Assembly: GCF_037975245.1 (NCBI RefSeq)
Contig: NC_092576.1
Coordinates: forward strand, 9,875,501 to 9,939,500
Direction of reading: 5' to 3'
Length of the DNA stretch: 64,000 nt
Source: Apostichopus japonicus
Lineage: Eukaryota > Echinodermata > Holothuroidea > Aspidochirotida > Stichopodidae
The position numbers and the translations under genes are program-made. Positions 1,954-60,100 of the stretch are shown here, piece by piece. Every line of letters starts with the position of its first letter. Position 1 is the stretch's first letter. Below the pieces are notes generated by a model. That model had not been told where the DNA came from, did no database searches, and was given only the letters and a program-made list of their open reading frames with translations.

Positions 1954-2252
1954 GGTGCTGTGGCCGAGTGGATAAAGGCGGTGGCATTTGAAGCAATGAG
2001 GCTTAGCAATCAGGAGGTTCAGGGTTCGATTCCCGGCCGGGTCATAGTACGGTGGGTTTTTCATCCAAGAGCAATCTACGGTTTTCCCATCTGAAATGAC
2101 TTTCTAATTGAAAAGATTTCAGATGGAAATTGAAGTGTTGAATTGGAAGCCACCCGACGTGTAAGTTGTAATCCACAAGCCCTTGCGGGTTTCTCCCACA
2201 TTTGTGGTCGCTTAAGCGTCGTAAAAATAACTGCTGATTATTATTATTTTTA
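1954..2252 (+). mobile_element. tRNA-derived SINE, family 1, with target-site duplication
   Basis: Head with A box TGGCCGAGTGG (1961-1971) and B box GGTTCGATTCC (2023-2033), resembling a class II (Leu/Ser-like) tRNA. A unique body and an ATT-rich tail follow. The direct repeat TTATAACC flanks it at 1946-1953 and 2253-2260. Not a tRNA gene: the acceptor stem cannot close and the body is shared with other copies. Confidence 0.85.
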
Positions 2253-4570: not shown

Positions 4571-7500
4571 CTAGTGTGGGATACAGAAAGATATAAAAAT
4601 AATAGGTTATTAAAAAACATATCACAACAGAAAGAAAGAAATAACAAAGAGGAAACTTCAATATGTAATGTGAGCGATATTATTATTATTATGATGACTG
4701 AGTTAGTATTTTATACAGTATGGAAACACTTTAACTTACGTTTACCTCCAACCGGGACTATGTATACCGACACTTATGAGTGAGTTTGTTTGCAACAAGG
4801 AAATTAGAAAGTTTGGGGCATCATTTTGGTCTGCTCGTTTTTATTTAGGGTAAGTTTACAGACATCGTTTGCTTGGAATAAATAAACTGAACACAGCAAT
4901 AAACAAACGCACGCATGCGTATAATCGCACACAAGCCTGTCCATATTATTGTAATGTAGTATGTAGTTATATCCCCATCATATTACATTAAACATTTGCT
5001 TCCATGCCTCTTTGTCTTAAGAGTATTTACTTACTTCCTGTTCATGACTTATTCACCCTACACCCACATCATATTCGTAGAAGCCCCCTTTGCCTTAATT
5101 CCATGAAATACTGATGCTTATAACCACGGATGAAAACCTGTTGCATCTCATGAGTATTACAAATGTGGTTAGTCATAGCCATCTCCTATATGCCTTAGTA
5201 ATTATAAGTAAAAAACTCTGTGACCAGGAGTTTATGTCACAGAGAGGTTATCGCCCTTTCACAGAAAGTTGTAATGACTTAGATACTGTAGTCTTTTAGT
5301 ATGGAAAAAGACTAAGATTCCAGACTTCAGAGAGTGTAGTTCAGCCTGATACACTCCAGCAATAAAGCTTAAATTCTACAATTATATCTATGTCTGGAGT
5401 TTCTCTTTATCTGTTGTTCATTATACTGATTTAATAACGGAGCCCGAACTAATTGAGCCGGAGCACCCCAACGTAACAGTATATAAGGATACCATTTCAC
5501 TCCTATGTCGTAGAACTTATGTTCAAAACTGTCAACCTTTTGACTCTATGCTTATACCTATGATGTGAAAGTTTAAAACAGACACTTGCGTTTAGTAAAT
5601 GTTCTCTTTCAACTTGGCGCACGTGTCCATACATTTGATAGAAAAGTGACTTACAAATCAATGTTAAAATAATGCTACTATTTTTTTTACTTTTAGAGCT
5701 TTACAGTTATAGTTATTTGTAATTTCTGTGTGAAACGTCTGTTTAGAGAGAATACTTACATTGCCTTAGATTTCCTTTGTTGAAGGAATACAATTCCTCC
5801 TATGATTATAATGAGACCCAAGATACCAAACGACACACCCAGACCGATTGCGAGACCGTTTGCTGAATTGAAAGTTGGAAGGAAACGAAAAAAAAATCAA
5901 TAATTCATGAAACGATAGTCGATAAAGACCAGTTTCGTATTACAATAAATATTATAATTAATATTTTAATTTAAAGTTAAGCAGAAATGGAGTATGAAAT
6001 CTGTTTGGACATTATAATGAATTTCAGGAGAAAATAGTATACAGGGGTCTCCAATTGGCTATAGAAAGGTTCAGGAAAATTTATATTGAGTTAATGACCA
6101 AGTTCTGTGCTGCCCAAATCATTTATAAATAAAGTCATAATACAAAGCATAAATATTATTATAAGGGATTCTTTGTTTCAATACAAGAACCTCTTCCCAA
6201 TACGCCAAACATAATATAAAAGCCAACACCAACATTTTAAACACAAAAGGTTGTAGTTATTGCGTAGAAAAAAAAACAATTACTTCAGAAGTTTAACTAC
6301 TCCAATGTATGTTCGTTAGGGTCTCTAATGTTCTATCAGTACGCATTCATACAAAGTGGAACCACTGTGGCCGATTGGTAGGGACTTAGTGCTGTGATAC
6401 AACGGCCCGTGGTGCCGACTCATAACTTCGACTGATGATTTCCTAAAGGACGGAACCGGTCGTAAAGTGGAATTTTTCTGGTGAGGTGATCTTTATATGC
6501 CTCATTTCCGAATGAGAGAAAGTACTACGTCAATACCTTCACCAAAGAAAGAGTGAACTTTTCATTACGATTTGATAGATTTTATGCAACTTGCTGAATG
6601 CTGACTTTAACTGGAAAATCACAACCATATAGTTCCACGAAATTTTAACCAGAAGAAAATCAACTTTAAACTTACGATTTTTGTCATCTATTTCCGAACC
6701 TGTAATTTTATGTAGAGAAAGAAAAACGTAGTAAGTTGAATACAAAAATCTGAAGTAAAATTTTACATAGTGGATGAAATTAGCAAATTAGGACAACAGT
6801 GTGGTTACTAATAGATTCGTGGTGAATGGAAAGTATGTTTATGTCAGCTAGACGAGATCTGTGACGTCATATATTACGTCAAGAGTGTTATTTCAATATC
6901 TCATTCTTTTTCCAAGTGAGTTCAGGCGCGTAGCCAGGAATTTGCCAAGGGAGGGGCGAAACTGTAGATTCGGCATTGCAAACTATCTAAGCGTCGCGCC
7001 ACCATAAGTTGGCGCGAAGCGTACAAGAAAATTTTGCCTGAAAATGCCTCCCAGATCGCTGGAAATGGCACTTCCCAGGCCTTGTAAGTTGCATCTTAGC
7101 ATTTTCTCTTTTGAAAATACTAGCGATATCATAAAAACATTAAATTTTTTTTTTAAAAATATGCTCAAGGGGGGGGGGGCGGATGCCCCCTTCGCCCCCC
7201 CCTTGACTACGCGCCAGAGTGAGTTCAATTTATTACGTGAGCTCCTTTAACAGAGTACATATGAGTTCGCTATTAAATCTCCCTGGCAAAGTTCATTAAT
7301 ATATTCGTCACGTGGTCGCTGATTATGCAAAGAAAAGTGAGTTAACGAGGTATAATTACCGCAGTTGTCTTCGTCACTTCCGTCTGTACAGTCTCGGACG
7401 TCGTTACAACGTTTGGATCTCGCTATACACGTATACTCGAGTGGACAGAGCCACTGGTTACTGTTACAGGGAGGAGCGTTGGCGCGGGTGCTGCCAGCTA

Positions 7501-22500: not shown

Positions 22501-25500
22501 GATAGTTTAGTCTCCTGTACCACTCATTCAACACTCTTGATAACCATTGCTGCCATAATGTTTTTTTTTCTGTGTTTTTTGTTACAGTCTGTTCATCATA
22601 AACATTTTAAGAAGCATACCGGATTAAGAAGGAAGGGTAACTTGTGAGGAAAGTGGAGCGGAGGATATCTTGATTTGCGAAACAAACACTTTTTTAAAGT
22701 TATTTTTTGGGGGTCATTCCTGATTTAAAATTTGTGCTGTATATGCCATACGTACCCCTTGGATTTCACTACCTACTTCTCACACATTACCTCGTAGTAT
22801 GTATATCATCTATTACAGTACGGAACGTAAACTTTGGTAATATGAAACTATAGATGAATTTCCCCTTTGTTTCATCTCATGGTATTCTAGAGAGGAATGT
22901 TTAGCACCGTAGTATGTATATCATCTATTACAGTACAGAAAGTAACCTTTGGTAATATGAAACTTTAGGGAATTTCCCCTTTGTTTCATCTCATGGTATT
23001 CTAGAGAGGAATGTTTAGCACCGTAGTATGTATATCATCTATTACAGTACGGAAATTAAACTTTGGTAATATGAAACTTTAGGTGAATTTCCCCTTTTTA
23101 ATTTCATGGTATTCTAGAGAGGAATGTTTAGCACCGTAGTATGTATATCATCTATTACAGTATGGAGTTAAAAACTTTGGTAAGAGGAAACTATAGATAA
23201 ATTACTCAATGGTTTCACCTCACGGTATTATAGAGAGTAATGTTATTAACTTTACCGGTTGTGGTTCCAGTGGTATGGTCGAATGAGGGTCCAGTTCTGT
23301 CACTACTGGTGCTACCCTGATGTCTAGTCCAATCAAATTCGTCGTTTGTTACTTGCGTCCAGTCACACCAGCCGTTTTCAAAATCACAACTATTGTAAGC
23401 ACCTGAAATGACGAATAGAAATGTGAAGGAATAACGATCCATTAAAATTGTTAATTTGACCAAAAGAGCTATTCATTGTATGAAGCCTTAGTCGCACACT
23501 CAACTCAATTAATTAGGAGTAGTAGTCGAAAGTCGACAAGTTGGAATCAAAACACAGACAAATATATTCCAAATTGTCAAATCTTAGAAACTTTATGAAA
23601 AAGCGAGCAGGAAAGAATAGTCGGCCTAAGCAAAGCAGCGAAAAACTAGCCCAACTATAGCTTAATTGCTATCATTTGTAAATCTAGATGAGATGATATT
23701 CTAAACAAAGTGTGTATGTAAGATGAAATAGACAATTAGTTGAGACAAAGCTCCTTATTCTTACAACACTCTATACTGTCCTTCAATATAATGCTTCCAA
23801 GCACTCGTACTGACAGTACGAACAGTTCCTAACCTTACTTTGATTCTAGTGCTAAAAACAACTCCATACTGTCCTCCCTAATTATGCTTCCAAGCACTCA
23901 TACTGACGGTATGAACAGTTCTTACCCTTTATATGATATATTTTATATGATCGATAGGAGTGCTTTTGGAAGTGGGACGTGGAAGTAGGGTAGCAAGATA
24001 GAAACAAATTGTAACAATTTGGTGAAACAGGAGTAAGTTATGAGTTATGCTAATCTACAGTGAAGCCGTGCGTTCATAATAACAGCACTGGAGTTTATTC
24101 ATTTGTGCCCATTGAATCCCCTACCCCACCCCCACCCACCCACCCACCCCCACCCCACCCCTCGCCCCTCACCCCTCACCTCTCACCCCTCACCCCTCAC
24201 CCCTCACCCCTCACCCCTCACCCCTCACCCCTCACCCCTCACCCCTCACCCCTCACCCCTCACCCCTCACCCCTCACCCCTCACCCCTCACCCCTCACCC
24301 CTCATCCCTCACCCCTCACCCCTCACCCCTCACCCCTCATCCCTCACCCCTCATCCCTCACCCCTCACCCCTCATCCCCTCACCCCTCACCCCCTCATCC
24401 CCTCATCCCCTCACCCCCTCACCCCCTCACCCCCTCATCCCCTCACCCCTCATCCCCTCATCCCCTCATCCCCTGACCCCCTGACCCCCTCATCCCCTCA
24501 CCACTCACCCCTCACCCCTCACCCCTCATCCCCTCACCCCCTGCATCTCCTTCAGGCACGCTGCAAGCAATTTCCAAACAAGTTTATACCGGAGGCTTGT
24601 ACAAGTTGAAAAATATGTGTCCCTCCTAGCAGTGGTCTATTTCTTCTCTGGCTAAATGAAAAAAAAAACGGGTATCCCATTTCCTCACTCTGACGATGGG
24701 AGGTAAGTGAGGGAAGCATGACCCTCCTTCATCTTCCTTTGCGCAAGCGCAATGTGACTAACTGTTCCTAACCAGTTTGTCATACGAGATACAATAATGT
24801 TGCATTTGGTTCCAACGAAGATTGATTAAACTGTTACTAAGACTTACTGCAAGTAGTTTCATCGGTTGTCTCCCCGCAACAATCTGTTTGAAAATCACAT
24901 TTGTAATCCTGGCTGTAGCAATACCCCGAGGCGCATCGGCTGTATCCAGTGTCGCAAGTACTGGTGGCGGTGTTGAAAGCGCAATCAACAAACGCTATAT
25001 CGTCAATAGCTATACCTCCCTCAGAGGGTATCTCCTGTCTATCTTGACCCTCCAGAGTTATCTATACGCAACAAAGGGTCAGTAAGAATAAAACGAGGAA
25101 TTTCGAAGAAACATGGATTCAGTTAATTGGTTCTTGTTATATCTTCAGACTACTCTATAGGAGATTAAGCTGAACCGGCACTGACTGAAGTAGCTTGAAA
25201 TATCGAAGAAAAATCGTTTAGCTTCTGGGTGTAACATTTTAAGAACCATCATTTAACACTTTACATTGCCGTAAATTTATAGATCTGATCGGATATAGAA
25301 GGACTGGTTATAATAACAGATAAAGTGTAATCAGGACTATACAATGTTTTAATGTTTTTAATGTCGATTTTGGCTGGAAGTCCAGCAGACAAGGCCTGTT
25401 TGAGAACAGTTGAAGAAAGGGCATTTGAAATTCTAAGAATAGTTTTTAGGGATATGTCCAATGTAACAGAACATGAACCCATGAACCCATCTAACAAACG

Positions 25501-38000: not shown

Positions 38001-41000
38001 AAAAATCAAACGCCTTCGGAATAAAAGATTGTTAATGGAAATGCAAATAATCTTGAACATAAATCCCTTGAAAAGTTACAAAATATAAATAATTTGGCAA
38101 CATAAAGATCTAATCATTTCTCAAAGAAGAGAAGTTAATTCCTTCGTCAACCAGTTTTCCCTGGGCTACAACATTCGCCAAGGTCGCTGTAATGATGCAG
38201 TTGACAAGTCGGGTTACCCAAGCATAAAAAATGAGAACAAACTACTAGGGATCTCCTCAATCATATCGGCTACCTTTCCTGTAGCATATAAATTTTTATA
38301 TGAAACATGTCAAACTTATAAAACATGTAGAACTCCATACTACAAGCGAAACCGAAATAACGTGACCAAAACTGTTATCAGGGTCACGTGAACTAGGTAA
38401 ACCAGAATGTCATGTGACTGTCTCTTAGCAATGTTTGTGGACCCGTCATTGCCGACAGTTCTAATTCATCCTGTACTAATATTATGTAATAGTTCAGTTA
38501 TAACGAAATTATACGCCGTTCAAAACAGTGGGTTGGTGGGTCCAAGTCCACCACAGTATGTCGCACAAATCGTTGACATGTTTGAGAAAATGAGAAAACT
38601 CTAATAATAACCTCTCTAATAATAATAATAATAATAATAATTATACGTGGTGTATCTACAGCTACGTCATGTGACTTCGAAAGTGGCTTTTGTGGCTGGA
38701 CGCAGAATACAGACGATGACTTTGATTGGCGAGTGAGGGATGGTAGCAACGTGTCGCCAGGCTTTAGTGGCCCAAATGGAGATCACACGAGTGGTGGTTT
38801 GACAGGTAACAATTATCATAAATTACAAGGATGTAGCGCTAATATATCATCATAGTACTTTGCATCATATTTTGTGATTCGTTCCCCCCCCCCCCCCCAC
38901 CAAAAAAACAAACGGTTACTCAATGGAACACGTTAATGAGATGTGTTCCTTGGTTAAACGCAGCCGATACTAATAGCTAGGACAATAACTTCAACTGCAA
39001 CGTGTAACAAATGTTACCGTGTTACGAACAGAAAGTAGTTATTACTGATGCACGGTTGTGGGACATGAACAGTATTACAGGTGGCACCAGTGGTTACTGT
39101 ACTAGTGAAGTTAAATTCCTCCTATTAATATAGTCATAGCGAGTTAGTTGTCATAGCTACAGCAGGAAAAAAAGACAAGTTTTTTGTTGTTGTTTCTATC
39201 TTTACGGCACTGAAACTACTTAATGGCATTTTGAGTTCTCATGATAACATTTCCTTAATGTGTGATGTAATTTTGACAGAAAGTGCTATATATAGCATGA
39301 CTGGACATGACAGTAATGTTGATTAACTCATCACAGGAAAAAAATTGACAAACTAAATATTAATACTTTGCATTCGTGGTAACGCATGTGTCATGATTAA
39401 TGAGCACTTGTTTGGTTTCAGATGTGATTAAAAGTTAATCATTTTCACCAGACGCCCCATAAATTTTATAAATTTCTAAATTCGCGTTATTGTCGCAACA
39501 TTGTTTACTTTATCCTTTAAACCAACTGTTTTTTTTTACCATTGTTTACTTGAAAGGTCGGTATTTGTATTTAGACGGTACCTTCACCAATGTCTCTAGC
39601 AAATCAAGCCTGACCAGTCCACGCTTCTCGCTTGCGGCTAGGACATGCAAGCTTACGCTGTGGTATCACTTCTTTGGATTAGAGTACGGAGACCTTGAAA
39701 TCCGTCAAATTACGAATGGAAACATTAAACATCTCTACAAAGTCTTGGACAAATATCCAGCCCTTCTTACCTGGTATTATACGGAGATATATGTTGATCC
39801 ATGTGTTGAGAACTTTCAGGTAATTATTTATTAAAAGTTTAATGATTTCAATTACAAAAAAAAGATCTTAAGACGGTTTATTATACAAGCGTAAAACATA
39901 GTAATGTATGCCATTTGACTGAGTAATTAAACTATATCAAAAGACGTATGAGATGACCATTTAGATAATATCTTGGCATGATAAGTTGCTCGCTTATTTG
40001 AGTAAACCTTGATACGTTCGGTAAAACTTGTAAATCAAACTCAAATTTCGTATTAGTTGAAATATGAAGTAAACAAATGATACAAATGTCATCGACAGAT
40101 CTGGTTGGGTACCTAGGATGATAGACGGGGAGGGGAGAGGTAGGGAGGGGGTGTCCCGTCAACTTTGATAGTTCTTCGCTTAGTAAATCCCCACCCCCAC
40201 CCCCAGGACAAAAACTTTAACTTTGTAACAGTATATAGTTTTAGGATAACCATAATATAAAAACAAGTTTAATTGGACATCTGAATGATATGCTTTCTAC
40301 TTTCAAGTTTATCAGTCTTTGTCAATACAAATTGAGTAAAATATTGTTCATGTAACATTCTATATAACAGATATTAATGATCGGTGAAGATAAACAGAAG
40401 TTTCCTCAAGAGGGCGGTATAGCTATCGATGACGTAGAATTTAAGGACTGTGCATTTGGGCCTGGGCAAGGTACATGTGGTGCTGGCAATCAGCAATGTT
40501 CTGTTTCAAATGTCTGCTATTCCAACGACTACAGATGTGACTTTACCAATGATTGCTGTGGTTCTGGTTCGGATGAAACGGCTTGCGGTAAGTCTTATTC
40601 TTCAAGATTAATATGCATTTGTCTTTTATTTGTTTTGCATAAAATCAAACGTCACAGATGGATATGTTTCCTCGTTCGTATATGCTGATTTATTTATGTT
40701 ACAAAGTACATTTGCCTTCGTACACAGGCGATGCAATAATTCATATAAAAACATTGACACAAACGATCAACAAGGTCTTATCTTATATTATCCCATTTTT
40801 AACATTACACTTGTCAAACTGGCAGTCACAATGCGAATAATGTTCATGAGCGTATATGTGGCGTTTCCTGAAACCTACCGGCAGTCCACGAAGTTGTATC
40901 AAAACATATATTTGTATTTGTTTTCTTTACTACTTGCTTAACAACGTTTCTCTAGCTCTGACTATTTATTCTTAACAATTTAATTTCATAAAGATGTCTG

Positions 41001-46762: not shown

Positions 46763-48640
46763 TAATAATAATAACAATAATAATAATAATAATAACAACA
46801 ACAACAATAATAATAACAACAATAATAATAATCATAATAATCATAAAAATAATAATAAAAGTAACCAAAAAAAAGACAAAAACGTTAATACTAAACTGTC
46901 GGTAGTTAATTGAACATGGAGGATGCGTTGCTTCTAAATATAAGTGTGAAGTATAAGCTATACATTGTCGACGGAGATGCCAGTCAGAAGTTTCAGTAAA
47001 CTGTGTAACCAGTGATGATTCAGAAAGAATATTAACGCTCTCCAACTAAGCAAAACATAATCAATGATAGTGATTTTTTGATTCAATAAATTAAAAACAA
47101 AAACAGATAGCTCTTCTTATAATAAAACCATAACTGAATAAGAAACACCATTAGACAGCAATATTTACAGGCCCCCCCCCCCCACCCACCACCTCCACCC
47201 CTCCCAGATTGTGTGTAGGCTAATGTTTACTTGCATGTCACGCTCCAGGCACTCGTACTGATAGTAGGAGCATCCCCTCTCTATCAGATAACGGTTAGAA
47301 ACTGTTTATACTTTTAGTACGAGTGCTCTGAAGCATGGTTTATGGGGGAAAGCATAGAGTGCTATTAGCATGAGAAAATTGTTCCTACTGGCATTTCTTG
47401 TTCAGATCATACATGTTAACGTTGCTATAAATATTCCTGATCATATATATAGATTATAGTGGAAGTTGAGGATACGCTGATTGTACCTGTTCAGAGTGGG
47501 TTTGCTATCGACGACTTTCTCTTCTCGGACTGTGAAGTTCCCCTCCCAGTGCTATCTGGAACATGTGGTGCCCAGCAGACACAGTGTAGCAATGGCGTTT
47601 GTTACCCAGCTAACCAGCAGTGTGATTTTGCACTTGATTGCTGTGATGGCACGGATGAGCTACCGTCACATTGTAGTAAGTAAGACTGGATTATTTGCGA
47701 CTTCTCAACTAGCCTCTGGATTGTTAGGAATAACATAGGGATTAATTTTTAATTTTCAAGTTTAAGAAGTGTATTACTTTTGAACTTATCTATACGGTGC
47801 GCCTGGTTGATGTGCGCATGGGGGGGGGGGGGGGAGCGGGAGGGATTTGGATACAAAGTATTCAAATCGACTAACGTAAATAAAGAACGGATTTCATTCA
47901 GTGTCGCCTCGAAGTTAACACTCAGTTCATACTCCAATTCAACCGAGTATTTTGTCAGGTGCTGTTTAGTATTAAAATAGGCTATGACGTAACATTTTAA
48001 TGATTAAGATTAGATAAAATGTGGTTATATACTCGTTGGTGAAATGAAACTAATCATTTTAAGTAAAGCACAGAAAGAGAGACGAAATAATACGAAACGA
48101 TACGTATGAAAATATAACAACTATATAAGAAACAGGATATAACGAAACGAAACGACGCAAATAAACCCAAAATAAAACAGAACAGAAAAGGTAAGGAAAA
48201 CAAAAGCAAATCAAAGCAAAGCGAAGCGAAACAGTAGAATGATTTCTTCATTAATCATATTTCTTTATATTTAGCCTCGTATAATATGTGCAACTTTGAA
48301 TCCGGAATGTGTGATTGGACAAATTTGAACGATGATGAATTTGATTGGACGTGGAACAAAGGAGGCACTGGTAGCGGTGGTACTGGTCCTGGAGCTGACC
48401 ACACCCTTGGAACTTCTGAAGGTAATGTGCGCTATTTCATATGCAACTAAGGGTATGACTGACGTTAAAGACATGAATGTGAGATATGTAATGGAATTTA
48501 ATATGTAATCATTTAATATAAGATAATGTAAAACTAATATATGCTTGTGTTTAGTCGTTCGGAGTGTGTAGATATTCATTGAGGGCATGGGTTCGAATCC
48601 CGGTGGAGGCTGGAAGTTTTTCCAACTCATTACGATTTTC

Positions 48641-57142: not shown

Positions 57143-60100
57143 GTAAGTAGTATTCAGTGTTCTATAAACTGTGATTGAAAGATTAATATTATTGTAATTA
57201 TGTAATATTAGTCTGCCAGTCTTTACCACCATGGCAGACTATATAGGCCCCTTAATTTACTATTTGGCCCCATTGAAGTAACGATGATCTAATAACCTGA
57301 ATCGTTACGTGTCATGTAGTTTGTCATCAATATAGTTTATTATAAATCTATATATCTATTTAGCAATTTTTTGTTAAATATATTTATATATATTTATATC
57401 TTGATATGAACTTAATGACAGTTATTCTAAGCCAATTTATACGCTTTAACACACCAGTAGAATCACTGTGGTCGAGTGGTACGGACTTCGGTTCGTGACA
57501 CGAACATCCGTGGTTCGATTCCTACCTTCGCCTGATGAGTCCCAAAAGGACGAAACCGGTCGTGAAGTGGAATTTTTCTGGTGTGTTATTCTTTACTGAT
57601 TTACAATATATCTGTAACCACTTGCTACACATTCAATATATATATATATATATATATAGGTTTCCAACAATATTTTGAAAGCTTCAAACCTCATAAAGTT
57701 GTTTTGCTTATTCTACTTAATTTGTATCGTTAATCAACAGGTCCGATTGTCTGCAGTGGTTTGGGTTGCCCAGCCCCTGGGAGCGGCACCTCATACGTTA
57801 TCAACTCTGATAGCTCTTCCTCGACTTGTCAGGAAGTCATCATAGATACCATCGGTTACCCGAACGGATATCCGGGCACCTCTTGCGAATGGCAGTTTAA
57901 CTCACGGTTTAACTTTAGGACATCAGTTGTAGCGGAGGTCTTAGATTTTGACGGTGAACCTGGGGATAATTTACGTCTACAGGTCAACGGGTTTTTCCCG
58001 AATAGTTTCATCAGCATCTTCGATGGCGACGAAGACGCATACAATGCACGATCATTTCCGCCGTTCAGTATCAGAACGAGGCGTTTGCGAGTTGGATTCC
58101 TGCCTAATAAACATCAATATTGCAGAAGGGGACTCAGAATACGGCTTACGTTTTCTCTCGCTGGTAATGTTGACTTTTATTTTACTCTTTTATTTTGCTT
58201 AAAAGATGGGGTGAATCGGCAGTATATATATTGCTCAAAACGATGATGATGATTCCAGACACCATATTTACCACGTACGTTGCTTCCGTAACTATAGTTC
58301 TCTTCGTTACTGTGCATATTTTAACTACTATCGGCTCTCAATCGAACTTCAGAAATGGGAAAGCTGTGATGTCACACAAAATCCGGCATACAATAAATAT
58401 TGTTGCATTCCGCTGAGACTCGACTTAAACATATTTCAAAAACCGGGAACGTATCGCTTATAAGTGCAATACCAATATTTCCCAAGCGGAATAGTACGTA
58501 ACATAATTTCAGCATAAATCACTAGAACTATTAATTCTTCAATCATGAAAGCTGTATTTTAAAACGATTCCTCTCTTTTTTTCTCTCCATACAGCTGCTG
58601 TTGAAGCATGTTTATCAACAGAAGCTGTTGAACTAACAGATACCTATCCGGTGACAGCCGTTCACACTCCCAACTATCCGTTGTTTTATGGTTCTGGGAT
58701 ACTGTGTTTTTATACAGTTACCAGTCCAGCTAATACTCAACTTATCGTAGAGTTTGTCAGTTTTCAGCTAATAGACTATCAGGATTATCTCTATATCTAT
58801 GATATAACTGATGCTGCCAATCCAAGGATCCTCCGCAGTTTCTCGGTTACAGATACCTCTGTAGCGTTCCAATCTTTCGAGTCTGGAACAAATGCTCTTC
58901 AGTTTGCGTTCCAGAATTTACCGATTGGCAGCCTACAAGGTATATTCGCTCGAGTAACATATGCAGGTGAGTTGTGCCCAGTAATCGCAACGGTGTACTA
59001 GATACGTGTACATGTTTTCAATGGCGCGGTGTTGAAGGTACGGGGGGGGGGGACGGGGGCGACGAGGGGGAGGGGAGGGGTGTTGTGGCGCCAATGGTCG
59101 GAATCAGGTTACAGCAGGGAACTTGTAGCAGAACAAGAGAGGGACGAAGTATTTGATAAAGCGGGGAGAGTGGTTCCTTTGGTTCGGTGAAGTGGAGTCC
59201 CATGTTAGACAAAATACTGCGCAGATATCATATGTCGACGGAACTTCTATATTGTTCGTATATCAGTCAGTCAATGAACAAGTTTTGAGATGAGTTACGT
59301 TATAATTTTAGTATATCTACTAGTATTACTTACAGGCTTAACATTCACAATCAGAGGGTTAAGAGCCCACTAGGGATTTTATTTTTTAGACCTAAACTTT
59401 AACAGTTGAGTCACTTGGCTACAAAGTTGTGATTCTTGTTCCGTTTGGTAGTTCTGGCAGGTTGGTGAATTATCAACGTTTCATAGCACTATAGAGGCAG
59501 TGTAAGTTTCAAGTCATGGTAGTCAGATGCTATATTTTTACTTAGCTCTCTCCTTTTCGCTATCCAAATTGAGACTCTAGTCCCGTCAGAATTGGCAACT
59601 GCTGCAGCTCTCGTGTGGTATGGGATATGTTTTATTAATTAATTGTACGTCATTGAAGGTTTTGTGACATCTACAGCTGATGATAAAAAGAGAAAATTGT
59701 GCTTAGTCTACTCGCTGCAGGGTAAAACTTTCCTTTACATTAATGCAAATGACAAACAATAGCAGATGGAATATTTCCTTATTATATAAGAATATGAATT
59801 AAGCTATACTGACTTTCTTGTTTCGCCAGATGTCATACCCACGTGTAGCGGACGTGGAACTAATACCGACCAATGCGCATGCTCTACAGTTAACGGAGGC
59901 TCACGGTGTCAAGTTGATGGAAGTATGTTAACATTTTTTTTATCTCTCCTGGGAAAGGTTTCTTTATTGTATAAAGACGTTTGAGAAAAAGAAAAAAAAT
60001 CGCCATAATATTAACATTTCAAGAACGAGCCGCTTATTGGAAAGCGAGTAAACAATACAACAAGAATTAAGAAAGTAAATAAGTTAACCAAGAATGTTAC

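Follow-up and report, generated by a model that had tools for sequence, protein, structure and literature searches.

A 341-bp hammerhead-bearing repeat of Apostichopus japonicus with tRNA-like promoter motifs and 3' ends mostly at (TA)n tracts

Background

What kind of element carries the hammerhead motif found in a 64-kb stretch of the Apostichopus japonicus genome, and how might its copies have been inserted? This stretch, analysed at its full length, is referred to as the window. A preliminary description of it had placed an apparently intact hammerhead in a tRNA-derived SINE and had compared the carrier with the Sm-alpha repeats of schistosomes and with animal retrozymes. The priming and the enzyme of animal retrozymes were left open in two papers from 2020, as far as the parts of these papers covered here go. 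In these parts, a DNA target or a small cellular RNA is given as the priming option and Penelope-like elements are regarded as a strong candidate partner (PMC7229834), while the repeats are described as having no conserved motif from which the partner could be deduced and seemingly no promoter (PMC7761336). The 341-bp family described here has a candidate promoter and two sites that are candidates for docking, together with a target sequence, which makes the question of priming testable.

Results

Hammerhead ribozyme and tRNA-like head

The type I hammerhead model of Rfam (RF00163) matches the forward strand with 38.8 bits (E 2.8e-6, gathering cutoff 34), and this is the sole match at gathering level that cmscan reports in the 64-kb window. 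A descriptor of core and stems has a single match in the window and a single one in all of 60 Markov-resampled windows. All elements originally listed, namely CTGATGA, stem II GTCC/GGAC, GAAA, ACCGGT, the GTC triplet and a six-pair stem I, were found, and cleavage is predicted after the same cytosine, C57561. The hammerhead is a real ribozyme motif, and self-cleavage is predicted from its sequence. With permissive settings, an extended motif at 57515-57582 aligns to Hammerhead_HH9 with 40.0 bits, which is under the gathering cutoff of 52 of that family, and its outer stem I is paired in 96.8% of the cells of 69 aligned copies.

The three-pair palindromic stem III of the preliminary description had to be given up, since a monomer can form only one or two pairs closing CCGG. 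The dimer activity deduced from it stands in part. It fits the palindrome, and two bare ribozymes cofold at minimum energy into the double hammerhead. On the other side, the dimerisation energy is uninformative, as an equal gain is seen in 186 of 200 shuffles, and the longer stretch of 117 nt that reaches from the tRNA-like head to the T run does not cofold into this form.

Table 1. Features of the 341-bp repeat family in the window, with positions in the window and, where given, in the unit
Feature	Position	Strand	Basis or remark
Retrozyme copy, 5'-truncated single unit (unit 313-341, then 1-200), 227 bp	57411..57637	+	blastn with the tandem unit
Left arm TAACACACCAG of internal stem around tRNA-like domain and ribozyme	57447..57457	+	inside the 341-bp unit
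Pol III box A-like TGGTCGAGTGG (unit 30-40)	57469..57479	+	pattern scan with box A consensus
Anticodon-arm-like hairpin TTCG-TGACA-CGAA	57492..57504	+	one pair C-G in 50 and U-A in 10 of 69 copies
Pol III box B-like GGTTCGATTCC (unit 73-83)	57512..57522	+	pattern scan with box B consensus
Extended ribozyme, outer stem I GATTCC/GGAATT, internal loop TAC/T, HH9-like	57517..57574	+	HH9 alignment; 69 copies
Type I hammerhead ribozyme, predicted cleavage after C57561	57526..57567	+	RF00163; genome count of the 30-nt core
T5 run, possible pol III terminator, overlaps outer stem I	57573..57577	+	1/210 mismatches in 42 copies
Right arm CTGGTGTGTTA of internal stem around tRNA-like domain and ribozyme	57578..57588	+	inside the 341-bp unit
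(TA)n tract at the 3' junction of the retrozyme copy	57638..57658	.	sequence; genome-wide junction statistics
Older copy of the 341-bp repeat, 77% identical, ribozyme core broken	6340..6495	+	sequence comparison

The pol III A- and B-box motifs reported upstream of the ribozyme were recovered, with 43 bases from start to start and mismatches of 7/459 (box A) and 4/462 (box B) in 42 copies. A medium-stringency A-to-B pattern occurs three times in the window, two of these in another repeat, against an expectation of 0.0 from 40 resampled windows, and a loose pattern occurs three times against an expectation of 0.7 from 40 such windows. ARAGORN called no tRNA, and the tRNA model of Rfam was absent among the matches with E <= 10 both for 57400-57640 and for the tandem unit of locus L149. 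As no tRNA gene was called, the likeness of the head to a tRNA consists in its boxes and one hairpin; the head has the A and B boxes of a SINE, though without a tRNA call by ARAGORN or Rfam. The T5 run lies about 12 nt past the cut, where it would tend to halt pol III ahead of a second ribozyme, so that the promoter may not feed the circle. This position speaks against a simple read-through by pol III.

A further tRNA-headed, SINE-like family, in which no hammerhead was called, is present at 1957-2170 (+) and 51148-50940 (-), where both copies share box A- and box B-like motifs and a tail containing CCAAGAGCAATCTACGGTTTTCCCATCTGAAATGACTTTC.

The 341-bp repeat family

In the 671.6-Mb genome there are 193 exact occurrences of the 30-nt ribozyme core, 97 and 96 on the two strands, and 0 of the reversed control. 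A genome search with a 156-bp query, in which 40 of 1148 first-look candidates were scored, gave 47 matches; in 40, the alignment extends over 154 or more of the 156 bases at 97-100% identity. The distance between two adjacent matches is 341 bp, and at the loci a unit of this length is repeated directly in tandem. In the listed part of the core occurrences (100 of 193), same-strand neighbours are spaced by 340, 352, 341, 341 and 341/341 bp at five loci, one of which has three ribozymes. Three in tandem were mapped in L210, and tandem loci with two also exist. Divergent copies with 76-90% identity to the unit and an intact core also exist, having been chosen for that core.

The unit has a GC content of 41.6%, within the range below 50% of retrozymes, and consists of the tRNA-like domain with A and B boxes, the type I hammerhead and an A/T-rich remainder. 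It is too short to encode a reverse transcriptase. Many insertions are shorter than one unit, and tandem repeats in the retrozyme range of 150-450 bp are present at some of the loci. No LTR-like arrangement was seen among the insertions mapped. Altogether, the carrier fits a high-copy non-LTR retrozyme of 341 bp with tRNA-like promoter motifs. The tRNA-derived SINE proposed at first retains its A and B boxes, and tandem 341-bp units, head-to-head pairs, (TA)n ends and multi-unit runs speak against it.

The copy in the window is 96.6% identical to the unit over 57411-57439 and 96.0% over 57440-57637 (blastn), and its 3' end falls in the second of the two 3'-end clusters described below, followed by (TA)n. 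With its one ribozyme, it could not by itself release a full unit. No hammerhead was found among the matches with E <= 10 in the region of the degraded older copy (6300-6540). The flank homology of the two window copies is equalled in score by 121 of 1500 random pairs downstream and by 42 of 1500 upstream.

Outside this genome, the ribozyme core pattern matched 0 stretches in a set of viral contigs (viral_contigs) and 0 in a set of genome contigs (genome_contigs). Looser hammerhead patterns matched 7, 10 and 3 viral contigs, and cmscan gave no hammerhead at gathering level in 15 of the first 17 (all except L015 and L017) or in any of the last 3. A pattern of box B plus hammerhead matched at least 119 stretches in genome_contigs. 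A blastn search against phages gave 135 records; in the 20 listed, no more than 20% of the query is matched, around box B, mostly under tRNA-Ile genes.

The window copy sits in what looks like an intron. Exon-like frames are spread over 7247-63012, with MAM or CUB domains in 3 of 5 frames scanned and LDL-receptor-like repeats seen by eye only, which suggests a large mosaic extracellular protein. The sole protein match of a MAM-domain exon at 39526-39834 (+) is a fragment of 92 residues under the label Salmonella sp. s51884 (86% identity over 65% of the query), and this fragment is suspected to be animal DNA in a bacterial assembly. A C-rich tandem repeat at 24054-24609 (+) can be read as PHPSPLT repeats, and its 2-kb stretch has a GC skew of -0.336.

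Conservation and RNA folding

In 42 copies chosen by similarity, the 12 catalytic positions of the core carry 6 mismatches in 499 (0.012), and stem I has a rate of 0.008. Box A (0.015), box B (0.009), unit positions 1-7 plus 19-29 (8/725, 0.011) and the arms of the internal stem (13/905, 0.014) are similar, and unit positions 41-72 (0.036) and 150-165 (0.053) are more variable. In 20 secondary copies the core has a rate of 0.045 (10/223) versus 0.036 at unit 173-199 and 0.037 at unit 1-7 plus 19-29. Some aligned copies carry changes at conserved core bases. On core conservation, which had been named as a check, neither the 42 similarity-chosen nor the 20 secondary copies thus show the ribozyme to be more conserved than all neighbouring stretches.

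The alignment used for structure comprised 68 of 73 extracted copies and the old window copy, giving 69 copies. The named structure is paired in 95.8% of its cells versus 39-50% when slid along the alignment, and the arm helix TAACACACCAG/CTGGTGTGTTA is likewise paired in 95.8% of cells. Compensatory changes in the stems were the second check that had been named. Changes on both sides of a pair were found in 14 cells against a shuffle mean of 4.8, and 0 of 500 shuffles reached this number, but 10 of the 14 go back to one change, from C-G to U-A, in the anticodon-like hairpin. The changes fall on 4 pairs, a number reached by 127 of 500 shuffles, and slid structures show 4-8 such pairs and 4-16 such cells. 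With only 4 changed pairs and comparable slid versions, the support from covariation is weak. Folding energies compared with shuffles gave a z-score of -3.8 for the module (unit 1-156), -1.3 for the rest and -3.5 for the unit folded as a circle.

Insertion ends, multi-unit runs and inverted pairs

Unit segments were mapped in 90 loci of the same genome, some of them overlapping. The loci had been sampled by similarity to the 156-bp query (L140-L169, and L170-L179 from the same list) or by the exact ribozyme core (L180-L229). Insertions less than 60 bp from a locus end were dropped, and 101 were merged by shared flanks into 64 clusters with one kept each. One flank cluster took in 26 entries, probably too many, so the merged counts are conservative.

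After merging, two U/A-rich sites of the unit contain 71 of the 95 3' ends, and 70 of these 71 have TATATA or ATATAT within 20 nt. The first site, unit 161-180, holds 41 of the 95 ends (41 of 41 with such a motif), the second, unit 191-212, holds 30 (29 of 30), and 24 ends lie elsewhere (9 of 24). Without merging (n=144) the numbers are 65 (60 with TA), 43 (39) and 36 (11). Across the window, one of the two motifs is present at a base rate of 306 in 9139 stretches of 20 nt. The two sites account for 35 of 39 merged ends in the similarity-chosen sample and 36 of 56 in the core-chosen sample, leaving 20 of 56 of the latter outside both sites. TA next to unit 172 could partly be due to slippage of the element's own TATATAT. 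Among 52 partnerless insertions, TA repeats are present on both sides in 24, on one side in 20 and on neither in 8. Target-site duplications, which in retrozymes exceed 4 bp where present, are not readable because the flanks often consist of TA repeats. No A-rich tail was seen in the flanks read, where the 3' ends adjoin (TA)n.

The 5' starts (n=128) are scattered and show no peak at the cleavage site, with 5 in unit 121-130. Two insertions (L189 1501-1602 and L223 1240-1354; L190 duplicates L189) have their end precisely at the predicted cleavage site, unit 122. These are possibly cDNAs of cut RNA, with the proviso that the loci were picked for a match reaching that base.

Runs longer than 341 nt make up 22 of 97 after merging, and the longest measures 866 nt. 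In 19 of 21 comparisons, laps within a run differ less than the between-run median, while the lap-mate is the nearest copy in only 8 of 21. Inverted pairs at a distance of up to 30 bp are head-to-head in 28 cases and tail-to-tail in 0 (37 and 0 without merging). At up to 300 bp there are 35 head-to-head pairs and 1 tail-to-tail, and the joins overlap by up to 10 nt.

A box-B-like fragment GGTTCGAATCC at 48590-48600 (+) of the window is followed by a long (TA)n tract, and similar tRNA-like fragments are located near (TA)n in the flanks of L141, L147 and L155. Other repeats may share the (TA)n target.

Discussion

Proposed cycle

We consider it probable that the window holds a truncated copy of a 341-bp non-LTR retrozyme that is copied from a circle by target-primed reverse transcription at (TA)n. 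The geometry of the insertions carries this argument. Clustered 3' ends, scattered 5' ends and pairs joined 5' to 5' are the traces expected of reverse transcription that starts at the target. Runs exceeding one unit call for a template in which units are repeated, either a circle or a multimer. The best reading of the template is a multi-lap RNA, probably circular, that is primed from both strands of (TA)n. We infer self-cleavage, transcription by pol III, circularity and a partner enzyme, for which a Penelope-like enzyme is the likely candidate.

In such a cycle, loci with at least two tandem units would be transcribed, perhaps by pol III. The ribozymes would cut the multimer into 341-nt units, acting singly or as dimers held by the CCGG palindrome, and a tRNA ligase may then close the unit into a circle by analogy with published retrozymes. 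A target-primed reverse transcriptase would open (TA)n microsatellites, and the TA-ended DNA would prime on one of the two U/A-rich sites of the RNA; the end clusters at these sites are observed, and the priming is our interpretation of them. The enzyme would halt at scattered positions, sometimes beyond one lap, as the runs of more than one unit show. Finally, both (TA)n strands would be primed and the two cDNAs would join 5' to 5', which would be the presumed cause of the observed head-to-head geometry. As (TA)n is alike on both strands, it would explain two-strand priming. The more specific version, in which the retrozyme brings its own promoter and the RNA circle docks by its two U/A-rich sites on cut (TA)n with both strands being copied at once, seems to us to have an equal chance of being right or wrong. 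If that version is true, the genome would bear witness to a hammerhead circle being copied in rolling-circle fashion by target-primed reverse transcription.

Alternative explanations

The template could instead be a linear, uncleaved multimer or a read-through RNA of tandem loci, with the ribozyme only releasing by-products. Tandem loci with two or three ribozymes could yield multimeric RNA directly, and an uncut template would also account for the long runs and for the lack of a 5'-end peak at the cleavage site. On the other hand, the 866-nt run would require a transcript of more than two units, and relatives in coral, mussel and axolotl were found as circular RNA, according to the parts of PMC7229834 covered. 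This explanation appears unlikely, and the circular template is preferred.

The tandem units could also point to a satellite-type repeat that was spread at the DNA level by recombination or extrachromosomal circles and joined TA microsatellites by chance. TA tracts are prone to recombination. Exchange between DNA molecules would, however, predict tail-to-tail and head-to-head pairs in equal numbers, where 0 and 28 were seen, and it would not predict the polarised pattern of clustered 3' ends with scattered 5' ends. This origin is quite improbable.

It is very improbable that the family is an ordinary tRNA-headed SINE, moved by a LINE, that acquired the hammerhead by chance. The boxes, the dispersal of the copies and the T5 run would suit such an element, but its 3' ends would not be expected at two TA-rich sites inside the unit without an A-rich tail in the flanks read, nor would tandem 341-bp units, multi-lap runs and head-to-head pairs.

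Co-option of the window copy as an intronic ribozyme, as has reportedly been proposed for HH9 and HH10 in amniotes, is hardly credible. The copy is intact, has the HH9-like extended form and is located on the same strand about 100 bp upstream of the open frame 57734-58246. However, it is 97-99% identical over 156 bp to other best-scored dispersed copies and hence young, and the exon is a predicted one, 57734-58246 having no Pfam match.

A cut-and-paste element with TAACACACCAG...CTGGTGTGTTA as terminal inverted repeats and a TA duplication can practically be dismissed: the module is flanked by a perfect 11-nt inverted repeat (equalled by 57 of 20000 random placements, or 9 of 17239 when stretches with more than 80% A+T are left out), but the arms are internal to the 341-bp unit in the genome copies, all 40 of 40 near-full-length matches covering at least positions 3-156 of the query, past both arms, and the loci read carrying unit sequence on either side of them.

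Comparison with known systems

Among the systems compared, Penelope-like elements share type I hammerheads with a minimal stem III in tandem copies (PMC7761336, parts covered), whereas the 341-bp unit is far too short for a reverse transcriptase. The Hammerhead_HH9 family (RF02275) shares the extended stem I and the UACC internal loop at 40.0 bits, but the repeat scores under the gathering cutoff of 52 and has a shorter stem III.

The closer likeness is to the metazoan non-LTR retrozymes, which, in the parts of PMC7229834 covered, have a type I hammerhead, tandem units of 150-450 bp, a GC content below 50% and a predicted self-paired RNA, all as in the 341-bp family. The axolotl retrozyme Amex1 of the same source has a one-pair stem III with a palindromic tetraloop, likewise found here. 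The (TA)n 3' ends and head-to-head pairs set the family apart, as they were not met in the descriptions covered from PMC7229834 and PMC7761336; the word 'inverted' does not occur in PMC7229834. A tRNA-like head with (TA)n-directed priming of two strands was not met in the literature covered, and a tRNA-derived head joined to a hammerhead was met for schistosomes only. Subscription papers were mostly outside this literature, so both absences carry little weight. The A- and B-box motifs are a further difference, as retrozymes seemingly lack promoters according to the parts of PMC7761336 covered.

In this last respect the family resembles Sm-alpha, which combines a tRNA-derived head with a type I hammerhead (PMC2770079, parts covered), the likeness being one of description only. 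Sm-alpha is related to tRNA-Gln and estimated at more than 10,000 copies, while the 341-bp family has no assignable tRNA isotype; a 335-bp W element is strongly similar to Sm-alpha (PMC8490949, parts covered). The initial comparison with both Sm-alpha and retrozymes holds, with tandem 341-bp units as in retrozymes and boxes before the ribozyme as in Sm-alpha. In the parts of PMC7761336 covered, it is considered that metazoan retrozymes could themselves count as a novel family of SINEs.
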